Shown here: positions 9,889 to 14,246 of the stretch, one piece after another
Numbering within the stretch: position 1 is the first letter of the stretch
Layout of the letters: each line of letters opens with the position of its first letter
Origin: Pseudomonadota bacterium
Lineage (GTDB): Bacteria; Pseudomonadota; Gammaproteobacteria; JAKAQQ01
Length of the DNA stretch: 64,000 nt
Assembly (NCBI GenBank): GCA_021798115.1
Contig: JAJZYM010000001.1
Location: 108,421-172,420 of the forward strand
Direction of reading: 5' to 3'
The notes under the pieces: generated by a model
The model's input: the letters and a program-made list of their open reading frames with translations, nothing else
What the model was told of the DNA's origin: nothing
The model's database searches: none
Position numbers and translations under genes: made by a program

Positions 9889-10651
9889 CGCCCCTCCCTC
9901 AACCTCCTCAACCCCCACACCCCCCACCCATGGGCGGCGCATCGGGCGTGGAGTCGATGAGCTTCGTCCGCTCCGCCTCGAACGAGGGATCAACCCCCAC
10001 GCCCGCGGTTCGGCGCTGATCGCCCTCGGAAACACCGAGGTCTATTGCACCGTGGGGTTCGAGGGGCGTGTCCCCGGCTTTCTTCGCGGTCGCGGGCGTG
10101 GCTGGCTCACCGCTGAATATGCCATGCTCCCACACGCCGGACGCGAGCGGAACGAACGCGACGCCTGGCGCGCGCGTCCCAACGGACGCGGTCAGGAAAT
10201 CCAGCGTTTCCTCGGGAGGGCGCTACGCGCGGTCCTTGATCTCGAAGCCCTCGGCGAATCCACACTTCTGGTCGACTGTGACGTGCTGCGGGCGGACGGG
10301 GGAACGCGCACGGCGGCGGTCACTGGTGCCTACGTGGCCTTGCACGACGCCGTCCGTACCCTGCGCGCCGAGGGCCGCCTGAACGGCGATCCCCTGCACG
10401 GTGCGGTCGCCGCCGTGTCGGTTGGGATCTGCCATGGCGAGATCCTTCTCGACCTGGACTACGAAGAGGACCGGGAGGCCGAAGTCGACTGCAACGTTGT
10501 CATGAACGACCTCGGCGCTTTCGTCGAGATCCAGGGGGCGGCCGAGGGGCATGCCTTTCACCGTAGAGAACTCGATGCACTGTTGGACAGGGCTGCGGGG
10601 GGGATCCGCGTGCTCCTCGAGGCCCAACGGCGCGTGCTCTCCTCCCCGTGA
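9866..10651 (+). CDS. rph: Ribonuclease PH
   Basis: GRGVDELRPLRLERGINPHARGSALIALGNTEVYCTV...LTAEYAMLPHA...; exact start codon uncertain (GTG 9866 in the track). Confidence 0.93.
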   Translation: MISRSSSNAPPSTSSTPTPPTHGRRIGRGVDELRPLRLERGINPHARGSALIALGNTEVYCTVGFEGRVPGFLRGRGRGWLTAEYAMLPHAGRERNERDAWRARPNGRGQEIQRFLGRALRAVLDLEALGESTLLVDCDVLRADGGTRTAAVTGAYVALHDAVRTLRAEGRLNGDPLHGAVAAVSVGICHGEILLDLDYEEDREAEVDCNVVMNDLGAFVEIQGAAEGHAFHRRELDALLDRAAGGIRVLLEAQRRVLSSP

Positions 10652-11274
10652 GTCTCCGTCCGTTCCTCCTGGCCTCTTCGAATCGGGGCAAGATCCGCGA
10701 AATCGCGCGTGTCCTCGCCCCCAGCGGTTACCGACCGCTCGCCCAATCCGAACACGGCATTGTTGCCCCCCCCGAGACCGGCGACAGTTTTCTGGCCAAC
10801 GCCCTCCTCAAGGCCCGCCACGCTGCACGAACGGTCCGAGATCTTCCCGTACTCGCGGATGACTCCGGTCTCGAGGTCGACGCCCTCGGAGGACGACCCG
10901 GAGTTCAGACGTCTGATCTTGCAGGCGTCGGGGCAAGCGACGAGGCCAACGTGGCCCGTCTTCTCGAGCTTCTGACCCCCTACCCCGAACCCGAACAACG
11001 GGCGGCCCGTTTCGTCTGCTGCCTCGTCTGGCTGCCGTTCGCCGAAGCCGAACCGCACATCTTCACGGGGATCTGTCAGGGACGCATTGCGCCGGCTGCC
11101 CGCGGGCACAACGGATTCGGCTATGACCCCGTTTTCGAGCTTCCGCAGCTAGGGCAAACCCTCGCCGAAATCGATCCGGCAACCAAAGACACCGTGAGCC
11201 ATCGTGGTCGTGCCCTGGCGACCCTCCAGTCTTTTCTGAACGACCGCAATCCCTTGGGTGAACGAGCGCCATGA
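10648..11274 (+). CDS. rdgB: RdgB/HAM1-family XTP/dITP diphosphatase
   Basis: LLASSNRGKIREIARVL, VLADDSGLEVDALGGRPGV, GHNGFGYDPVF, TVSHRGRAL. Confidence 0.95.
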   Translation: MSLRPFLLASSNRGKIREIARVLAPSGYRPLAQSEHGIVAPPETGDSFLANALLKARHAARTVRDLPVLADDSGLEVDALGGRPGVQTSDLAGVGASDEANVARLLELLTPYPEPEQRAARFVCCLVWLPFAEAEPHIFTGICQGRIAPAARGHNGFGYDPVFELPQLGQTLAEIDPATKDTVSHRGRALATLQSFLNDRNPLGERAP

Positions 11275-11289
11275 AGCGTCCCCAGCAAG

Positions 11290-11298
11290 TTATGCACA
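11290..11298 (+). promoter_or_regulatory. DnaA box (TTATGCACA)
   Basis: Exact match to TTATNCACA. Confidence 0.55.
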
Positions 11299-11474
11299 GT
11301 GGGGACGGCCTTCCGGACGGCATGCAGTTGCAGCAGGGCACTCGCCCGGTCCGGGAGGAGAAGCCGTCAACTCATTGAAACACATGATTTTATGAGATGT
11401 AAACTTTCTGGACACTCGGAAGAAACTAGGGGATTCGTAGCCTCCGCTGCGCTCGCGGGCGTTCCATCCACAGA

Positions 11475-11499
11475 GTTATCCACAGTTTTTGTGGATAAC
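11475..11499. promoter_or_regulatory. Inverted pair of perfect DnaA boxes (GTTATCCACA-GTTTT-TGTGGATAAC)
   Basis: TTATCCACA at 11476-11484 (+) and 11490-11498 (-), forming a 10-bp inverted repeat. Confidence 0.65.
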
Positions 11500-11546: not shown

Positions 11547-14246
11547 TTGAATTCCGCTCGGCCCGTCCGTCTGCGCGACTACACGCCCTATCCCTACATC
11601 GTCCGGGGGGTCGAACTCGATTTCTCTCTTGACGGGGAGACAACGCTGGTGCGCAGCCGTCTGCGTCTCGAGCGTCGAAGCGGCCTCTCCGATCCGACCG
11701 CTCCGCTCAAACTCGACGGCCGTGATCTCGAACTTCTTGAGATCCGACTTAACGGACGGAGACGCGAGCTCGGGAAAGATGCTGATCTCGAACGTGGATC
11801 CCTCGTCCTCCCCGGGGCAGGCTCCACCCCTCTCGTCGAGACGCTCGTTCGGATCCACCCCGCGCAGAATCGGGCTCTTTCCGGCCTCTATCTCTCGCGC
11901 GGCATTCTTTGCACCCAGTGCGAAGCCGAGGGGTTTCGACGGATCACGTACTACCCTGACCGGCCCGACGTCCGTGCGCCCTTTCGGGTCCGTCTCGAGG
12001 CCGACCGTGAGCGCTTTCCCGTGCTTCTGACAAACGGCAATCTCGTTGAGGAAGGGGCTCTGCCCACCGGTCGCCACTACCGGCTCTACCACGATCCGGT
12101 TCCCAAGCCCTCCTATCTCTTTGCCCTTGTCGCCGGGACGCTCACACGACGCACGCGAACGGTCACGACAGCCGACCGGCGAACGGTCGCACTCGAGCTC
12201 TTTGCCGACCCCGCCCGTGCCGACCGCGGGGACTTCGCGCTCGAGTCCCTCGCCCTCGCTCTGCGCTTCGATGAAGAAACGTTCGGGCGTCTCTATGACC
12301 TCGAGCGTTATGCCCTCGTCGCCATCGAGGATTTCAACATGGGGGCCATGGAGAACAAGGGGCTCAACATCTTCAACGCCAAATATGTCCTCGCCACTCC
12401 CGGGACGGCGACCGACGACGATTACGACCACATCCTCGCGGTCGTGGGCCACGAATATTTTCACAACTGGACGGGCAACCGCATCGGGATCCGCGACTGG
12501 TTTCACCTCGCTCTCAAGGAAGGCCTCACGACCTGGCGCGAGCAGCTCTTCAGCGCGCGTCACGGCGGATCCCCGCTCGTGCGCCGCATCCGAGACGTCC
12601 GCCTTCTGCGCACCCGCCAGTTCCCCGAAGACGCCGGCCCCCTCGCCCATCCCGTGAGACCGCCCTCCTACATCGCCATCGACAACTTCTACACCACCAC
12701 CGTCTACGAAAAGGGAGCGGAACTCTTTCGTCTCGCCGCCGCCCTCCTCGGTGAAGAGACGATGCAACGCGGTCTCGCCCTCTACTTCGCGCGTCATGAC
12801 GGCGAGGCGGTCACTCTCGAAGATTTTCGCCAAGCCCTCGAGGACGCCAGCGGACAGGACCTCACCTCTTTCCAGCGGTGGTTCGATCAGGCCGGAACGC
12901 CCCGCGTGCGTGTGCGCACGCGCTACGACCGCCGCCGACGCCAATTCGACATCACCCTGAGCCAACGTACGCCCAGCCCCGCCGGCACACGACACCCGGC
13001 TCCTGTCGTCATTCCGGTTCGTCTCGGGCTCCTCGATCGGCGGGGCGAGGCTCTGAGCTTCCGTGACCCCACCACGCGTGCCCTCTGTCAGGAAACGACC
13101 TTGGTTTTCGCAAGCGCAACGGCTCGTTTTCGTCTCGACGATGTGTCGCGTCGTCCCCTGGCCTCTCTTTTCCGCGGCTTCTCAGCGCCTGTCGTCGTCG
13201 AAGGCAAACGCGACGACGAGGAACTCGCGGTCCTCGCCGGGCACGATCCCGACGGTGTCAACGCCTGGGACGCCCTCCAGGAACTCTACGTGCGGGCACT
13301 CCGCCGCCTCGCCGCGGGGCGATCACGACCCCTCGACACACTCCTCCGCGTCCTCCGCCGACTTCACGAACGTGACGACGACGGAGCTCTCCTCGCCGAA
13401 ATGCTGCGTCTGCCCGATACGGCATGGCTCTGCGAGCAGCTGCGGCCCTACGATCCCGCACGGTCCGAACGATTGCGCGACCGCCTCCACACCGAGCTCG
13501 CACGGCGCCTTCGCGACCACTGGTCGACCCTGTACGAGCGAACCCGTCCCACGTCACCCTACCGACCGAGCCGCGAGGAGAAGGCCCGACGCGCCCTCAA
13601 CAATGTGGCGCTGGGCTATTTTGCCGGCGGGGAACACGAACCGGGGCATCTTTTGGCCCAAGCGCATTACGAACGAGCGGACAATCTCACCGATCGCCTC
13701 GGAGCGCTTCTCGCGGTGAACGACGCTCCGTCCCCGGTGCGAACCCGGCTTCTGGACGATTTCCGCCGCCGGGCGGGTGACGAACCCGTCCTCCTTGATC
13801 TCTGGTTCAGCCTCGAGGCCCGCGGCCACGGCGAGGGGACACTCGGGCGGCTGCGTCGGCTCCTCGACGACCCCGACTACGTCCGCACCAACCCGAACCG
13901 TGTCCAGGCCCTTCTCGGCACCTTCACCAGCGCAAACCTGGCGGCTTTTCATCGCACTGACGGGGAGGGCTACCGGCTTGTCGCCGGTGAGCTTCAGATC
14001 CTGGACGGAATCAATCCCCTCGTCGCGGCACGCCTTGCCAAAGCGTTCAGGGATCCCGGCCGACTCCGCACCCGGCAACGCATTCTTCTCAACAGCGTCC
14101 TGGGCGAGCTCCGTGCACGGCGCGGACTCTCACAGGACCTGACCGAAATTCTCGACCGTCTTCTCAGACACAGCCACAGACTTTCCGGCGGTGCGCACGC
14201 CGGCAGGGCGGCCTCTCAGTCGAGGGGCCCGAGAAAGAGTTCCTGA
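11547..14246 (+). CDS. pepN: Aminopeptidase N (M1 family)
   Basis: GAMENKGLNIFN, HEYFHNWTGNRI zinc motif, full length 899 aa. Confidence 0.96.
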   Translation: MNSARPVRLRDYTPYPYIVRGVELDFSLDGETTLVRSRLRLERRSGLSDPTAPLKLDGRDLELLEIRLNGRRRELGKDADLERGSLVLPGAGSTPLVETLVRIHPAQNRALSGLYLSRGILCTQCEAEGFRRITYYPDRPDVRAPFRVRLEADRERFPVLLTNGNLVEEGALPTGRHYRLYHDPVPKPSYLFALVAGTLTRRTRTVTTADRRTVALELFADPARADRGDFALESLALALRFDEETFGRLYDLERYALVAIEDFNMGAMENKGLNIFNAKYVLATPGTATDDDYDHILAVVGHEYFHNWTGNRIGIRDWFHLALKEGLTTWREQLFSARHGGSPLVRRIRDVRLLRTRQFPEDAGPLAHPVRPPSYIAIDNFYTTTVYEKGAELFRLAAALLGEETMQRGLALYFARHDGEAVTLEDFRQALEDASGQDLTSFQRWFDQAGTPRVRVRTRYDRRRRQFDITLSQRTPSPAGTRHPAPVVIPVRLGLLDRRGEALSFRDPTTRALCQETTLVFASATARFRLDDVSRRPLASLFRGFSAPVVVEGKRDDEELAVLAGHDPDGVNAWDALQELYVRALRRLAAGRSRPLDTLLRVLRRLHERDDDGALLAEMLRLPDTAWLCEQLRPYDPARSERLRDRLHTELARRLRDHWSTLYERTRPTSPYRPSREEKARRALNNVALGYFAGGEHEPGHLLAQAHYERADNLTDRLGALLAVNDAPSPVRTRLLDDFRRRAGDEPVLLDLWFSLEARGHGEGTLGRLRRLLDDPDYVRTNPNRVQALLGTFTSANLAAFHRTDGEGYRLVAGELQILDGINPLVAARLAKAFRDPGRLRTRQRILLNSVLGELRARRGLSQDLTEILDRLLRHSHRLSGGAHAGRAASQSRGPRKSS

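Follow-up and report, generated by a model that had tools for sequence, protein, structure and literature searches.

A candidate DARS2-like DnaA-reactivation site between rdgB and pepN in a gammaproteobacterial genome

Introduction

Which function is served by a cluster of DnaA boxes in the non-coding gap between rdgB and pepN? The question arises from a gammaproteobacterial genome of 1.88 Mb (38 contigs, about 97% complete). The window, that is the whole stretch of 64,000 nucleotides that was analysed, corresponds to C36:108421-172420. An earlier note on this DNA had named a chromosomal origin, a datA-like or DARS-like site for DnaA titration or reactivation, a DnaA-regulated promoter of pepN and a simple hairpin as candidates, and had not singled out one of them.

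Reactivation of DnaA at DARS sites was worked out in E. coli (PMC4245941, PMC5742627). There, ADP-DnaA assembles on boxes I-III of the site and releases ADP, and IHF and Fis tune this reaction (PMC5742627, PMC4245941, PMC8682772). The DARS core is defined by three equally spaced boxes with box I opposed, and the head-to-head contact of DnaA across boxes I and II is what sets these sites apart (PMC5742627). Conservation of DARS was stated for species close to E. coli (PMC4245941, PMC5742627; eight species in a figure of PMC8682772), and from these papers it was already known that the DARS2 core is conserved in E. coli-proximal beta- and gamma-proteobacteria. Judged by its sequence, the cluster described here is very probably a single-copy DARS element, a reactivation site for DnaA that resembles DARS2, and we infer its function from this resemblance.

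Results

DnaA boxes in the gap between rdgB and pepN

The gap between the stop of rdgB at 11274 and the start of pepN at 11547 comprises 272 non-coding bp, as noted before, and both flanking gene names were confirmed by NCBIfam. All four DnaA-box-like sites of the earlier note, at 11290, 11464, 11476 and 11490, were recovered (Table 1). The core (11464..11498) reads CCATCCACA–3 bp–TTATCCACA–5 bp–TGTGGATAA, and its box III agrees with the consensus at 7/9 positions.

Table 1. Features of the rdgB-pepN gap and its neighbours (window coordinates).
Feature	Position	Strand	Remarks
rdgB (non-canonical purine NTP pyrophosphatase)	10648..11274	+	left neighbour, context; TIGR00042 above cut-off
Distal DnaA box TTATGCACA	11290-11298	+	oriented as boxes II and III; 165 bp from box III
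Putative IHF-type site CAACTCATTGAAA	11368..11380	-	starts 99 bp before core pattern; consensus TAAnnnnTTGATW in this orientation
Fis-consensus-like 15-mer GTAAACTTTCTGGAC	11399..11413	+	starts 68 bp before core; one mismatch to GnnYAnnnnnTRnnC
Candidate DARS core, box III CCATCCACA	11464-11472	+	box II 3 bp away
Candidate DARS core, box II TTATCCACA	11476-11484	+	box I 5 bp away
Candidate DARS core, box I TTATCCACA	11490-11498	-	opposed to II and III
pepN (aminopeptidase N)	11547..14246	+	right neighbour, context; TIGR02414 above cut-off

With at most one mismatch, TTATNCACA was observed 13 times in the window compared with 6.5 expected, and the three perfect copies in the window all lie within the 272-bp gap. 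Genome-wide such boxes are rare, with seven perfect copies, the three in the gap included; TTATCCACA occurs three times in the genome, two of these inside the gap, where base composition predicts 3.7 over the whole genome. The exact three-box arrangement has an expectation of 2e-8 chance occurrences in the whole genome. When the gap was used as nucleotide query against its own genome it matched itself alone, and it is therefore not a repeat element. The AT-rich stretch described previously is real (67% A+T at 11365-11412, compared with 43% in the gap as a whole and about 35% over the contig) and corresponds to the region of the IHF- and Fis-like sites. At 11278-11308 the distal box is flanked by CGTCCCCA and TGGGGACG, which form a perfect 8-bp inverted repeat that is absent from G001 and G002.

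Core geometry and its occurrence in other genomes

The core of E. coli DARS1 (L052 308-342) reads TAATACACA-3-TTATCCACA-5-AGTGGATAA and that of DARS2 (L051 1136-1170) TTCTTCACA-3-CTATCCACA-5-GGTGAATAA, both in the orientation found here. Order, orientation and gaps (3 and 5 bp) of the core in the window are identical to those of both E. coli cores. The locus has the three-box core with opposed box I and the spacing shared by DARS sites, and it is intergenic and lies outside oriC, about 108 kb from dnaA and from the turn of the GC skew. Among the candidates of the earlier note it is the DARS-like reactivation site that agrees with these matches.

As a descriptive figure over related and not independent genomes, as are all spacing counts given here, the I-II gap was exactly 5 bp in 72 of the 75 inverted pairs among the matches listed for genomes of the class when it was left free between 0 and 20 bp, though the contrasts are very large. 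The remaining three listed pairs have a gap of 17; in two of these cases boxes III and I of the same element had been paired. The inverted box pair was present in 177/369 genomes, while the reversed pattern turned up in a handful. Although this pair search did not include box III, NNNNNCACA stood in tandem at exactly 3 bp in 50 of 60 sampled pairs; in the same sample the runner-up gap accounted for 5 pairs and most gaps for 0-2.

The full core was found with up to 2 mismatches in 216/399 genomes of the phylum and, by hand count, in about 122 of 137 sampled genomes of the class. DARS1 and DARS2 of the E. coli type were recovered in this search as positive controls, and the reversed-pattern control at the same tolerance gave 0 hits in the 399 phylum genomes. 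Lengthening each gap by 1 bp reduced the count to 18/399 and 4/137, respectively. About 10% of the sampled class genomes are without a core. In family f108 of the class this applies to 10 of 11 genomes and in f183 to three genomes of about 1 Mb, which suggests lineage-specific loss in both cases. Outside the class, DARS-like cores were seen in families f207, f211, f215 and f228 of the same phylum, with often 2-5 per genome in f207; the full-core search found none in other large families of the phylum.

Flanking sites and the wider module

The surroundings of the core were compared at 71 distant named loci, which were taken from among the matches listed with an exact core and are neither random nor independent. 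At 36 of these 71 listed loci a co-oriented distal box lies 157-181 bp from the core pattern, in 20 cases at 171 or 172, whereas an inverted distal box, or one on the other side of the core, was found at 0 of the 71. The distal box carries C at position 5 in 3/36 cases, compared with 58/60 for core box II. In Legionella (L101, L105, L109) a same-orientation box lies 107-108 bp away on the box I side and none at the usual distal position, possibly a different layout.

The IHF-type site is placed at -99 in three congeners. An IHF-like match at -125..-85 was present at 41 of the 71 listed distant loci (shuffle mean 4.5, maximum 11), and in 34 of the listed loci it starts at -101 or -102. The Fis-like 15-mer recurs at -68 in two congeners, also with 1 mismatch, and matches to the Fis consensus are found at -70 in six genomes of sister genera. 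At 22 of the 71 listed loci an exact Fis consensus lies at -75..-58 (shuffle mean 0.98), 18 of them exactly at -69; with one mismatch tolerated, as is necessary for the site in this species, chance alone would give about 15/71. The labels IHF and Fis rest on the consensus match together with the fixed position, and binding of both proteins at these sites is predicted on this basis. The order of the module is core–Fis-like–IHF–distal box, compared with core–IHF–Fis in E. coli DARS2.

A titration site, which soaks up DnaA and leaves its nucleotide unchanged, would profit from the fact that any high-affinity cluster titrates DnaA and that two of the three genomic TTATCCACA copies are assembled here. 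Titration depends, however, on number and affinity of the boxes, not on a fixed 5-bp inverted pair with a third box at 3 bp, and IHF- and Fis-type sites in fixed phase are not required for it, so that we regard this reading as unlikely. Quite improbable is also a datA-like site, which with IHF would promote hydrolysis of the ATP bound to DnaA. E. coli datA is likewise a non-origin cluster of DnaA boxes with an IHF site, and the present combination of boxes and IHF-type site is separated from the dnaA region by about 108 kb; but according to its literature description, on which our comparison is based, datA promotes ATP hydrolysis via mainly head-to-tail contacts, whereas a box I opposed next to box II marks DARS sites (PMC5742627), and the core equals DARS1 and DARS2 exactly. 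Both datA-like hydrolysis and pure titration would appear to leave the strict head-to-head spacing of 5 bp unexplained.

Conservation in the family and change of locus

All nine genomes of the family contain one core each, and second copies were not found in the family with up to 3 mismatches. In three species of the genus the 32 bp from position 4 of box III through box I are identical. A distal box of the TTATGCACA type is present in 9/9 family genomes, and its distance from box III is about 165-170 bp. The module lies between rdgB and pepN in the window's genus, and in six genomes of two sister genera between a psd-like and a GAF-like gene. Because the distance is kept despite the different locus, the distal box and the core have moved as one unit, or stayed as one unit while the genes moved.

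The core comes about 200-400 bp after hemW, usually at the end of rph-rdgB-hemW, at 11 or more other loci in gammaproteobacteria; gltA or xseA are further neighbours, and one core of G027 comes after pepN. The commonest setting was a position just upstream of priA, which encodes the replication restart helicase, and co-oriented with this gene (24 loci, L053-L132); a search of the open-licence literature for DARS in Pseudomonas or linked with priA gave no relevant paper. An rph-rdgB-hemW arrangement of gammaproteobacterial type with a DARS core was also seen on a contig labelled as actinobacterial ('Candidatus Planktophila lacus', L064, CALQLF020000015.1), which is probably mis-binned.

A promoter of pepN under control of DnaA, as considered in the earlier note, would fit with the short distance of 48 bp between the end of the core and the annotated start of pepN. 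This explanation is very unlikely, as the module stands between psd and the GAF-like gene in the six sister-genus genomes, and the core adjoins hemW, priA, gltA or xseA elsewhere and in G027 is placed after pepN. A scan of the locus for sigma-70-like promoters found none, and with the module placed elsewhere in relatives the pepN promoter was rejected.

GC skew and the position of dnaA

The distance between core and dnaA varies in other genomes: as a share of the chromosome it corresponds to 3.7% and 17% in G139, to 8% and 34% in G027 and to about 35% on either side in G088. Here it amounts to 108 kb or about 6% of the assembly. For the GC skew, the 317-kb contig C36 was analysed. The cumulative skew falls steadily through the cluster and turns at 225-258 kb, and the turn, together with dnaA, is about 108 kb away from the cluster. 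The cluster does not coincide with the skew turn and dnaA, as an oriC usually does. At the skew turn, dnaA is accompanied by boxes of its own. This region, G000:C36:225000-229000 outside the window, has about 50% A+T in a contig of 64% G+C. Its boxes are few and loosely spaced, one of them being TTATTCACA next to the stop of dnaA, and consensus boxes are scarce for an origin; this stretch is the probable true origin region.

The cluster itself is the densest group of consensus boxes on the contig and lies beside an AT-rich stretch, as might be expected of a chromosomal origin. The skew is nevertheless negative on both sides of it, with the cumulative minimum at C36 225-258 kb beginning at dnaA, and the same core is found far from dnaA in complete genomes, which makes an origin at this place extremely unlikely. 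We give practically no credence to a hairpin acting as a DNA or RNA structure, for example as terminator: although folding of its 10-bp stem is favourable (-10.7 kcal/mol, z -3.4), it has neither a T-run nor a terminator call, the pairing is broken in the sister genera (box II TTTTCCACA, box I ATATCCACA or TTATCCACA) with TTWTNCACA largely retained, the arms of the E. coli DARS sites mismatch too, and box III is conserved outside the stem.

Discussion

Proposed mechanism

The module with its geometry, its conservation and its mobility between loci is accompanied in this genome by dnaA and by Hda-like and Fis-like genes. The Fis-like gene shows 41% identity to E. coli Fis. With PF00308 alone one DnaA-domain protein was reported, and a full-length Hda-like gene (G000:C34:84449-85141) surfaced with TIGR03420, where it scores 116 bits against a curated cut-off of 194.8. 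Because the Hda-like proteins of the whole family also score below this cut-off, Hda appears to have diverged in this lineage.

If the cluster is a DARS element, hydrolysis of ATP after initiation would yield ADP-DnaA, which could be produced with the help of the Hda-like protein and would assemble on boxes I-III. Since boxes I and II face each other across 5 bp, the DnaA molecules on them would meet head to head. This contact would loosen the bound ADP, and the apo-DnaA would depart and take up ATP, so that the level of ATP-DnaA would be raised for the next round of replication. IHF and a Fis-type protein might bend the DNA and draw the distal box toward the core, and this bending may switch the site on or off over the cell cycle. 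Binding of DnaA, IHF and Fis, release of ADP and an effect on the timing of initiation are thus all predictions by analogy with E. coli. A negative feedback by ATP-DnaA acts through box V, located next to the Fis sites, in the E. coli system (PMC8682772). The distal box may serve a similar purpose here, which is speculation because its orientation and the order of the helper sites differ from E. coli.

New within the open-licence literature are the breadth of the core, the other order of the helper sites, the constant position of the distal box and, in this lineage, the presence of a single copy. A more general proposal, which we hold to be evenly balanced between right and wrong, is that the widespread gammaproteobacterial DARS, including that of the former betaproteobacteria, is a four-part module of about 210 bp (core, Fis-type site, IHF site and distal box of the same orientation) that relocates as a whole and in many lineages occurs once per genome. 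On this view the DARS1 and DARS2 pair of E. coli, with its IHF-then-Fis order, would be derived. If true, a DnaA switch with reordered helper sites, often in one copy per genome, would exist across most of the class. It could be tested in single-DARS organisms, which lack the redundancy of the two E. coli sites, and there would be a simple route to DARS sites in any gammaproteobacterial genome.

Comparison with the E. coli sites

With E. coli DARS1 (bioD-uvrB) the candidate element shares order, orientation and gaps of the core, with II and III side by side and I opposed. In DARS1, however, neither a distal box nor, with up to 1 mismatch, an IHF-type site at the corresponding position was found, and IHF and Fis are dispensable for its activity in vitro (PMC5742627).

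With DARS2 from the mutH region it has in common the core of boxes I-III with its gaps (5 and 3 bp) and its opposed box I, an IHF-type site in like orientation on the box III side (TAATGCATTGACT at -90 in E. coli, CAACTCATTGAAA with one mismatch to the consensus at -99 here) and another DnaA box beyond this site. In DARS2, however, the full box closest to the core lies at 179 bp in inverted orientation, whereas the distal box here is co-oriented with II and III at 165 bp, and given this opposite orientation the regulation may differ from that of DARS2. The neighbouring genes are also different (mutH there, rdgB and pepN here), so that the neighbourhood is not shared. Seen from the core of DARS2, the IHF sites come first and the essential Fis sites after them (PMC4245941), and an exact Fis consensus was found there at -128; here the Fis-type site at -68 lies between core and IHF site. 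Because this recurrent Fis-like site falls between core and IHF site, we classify the element as DARS2-like and not as DARS2 itself.
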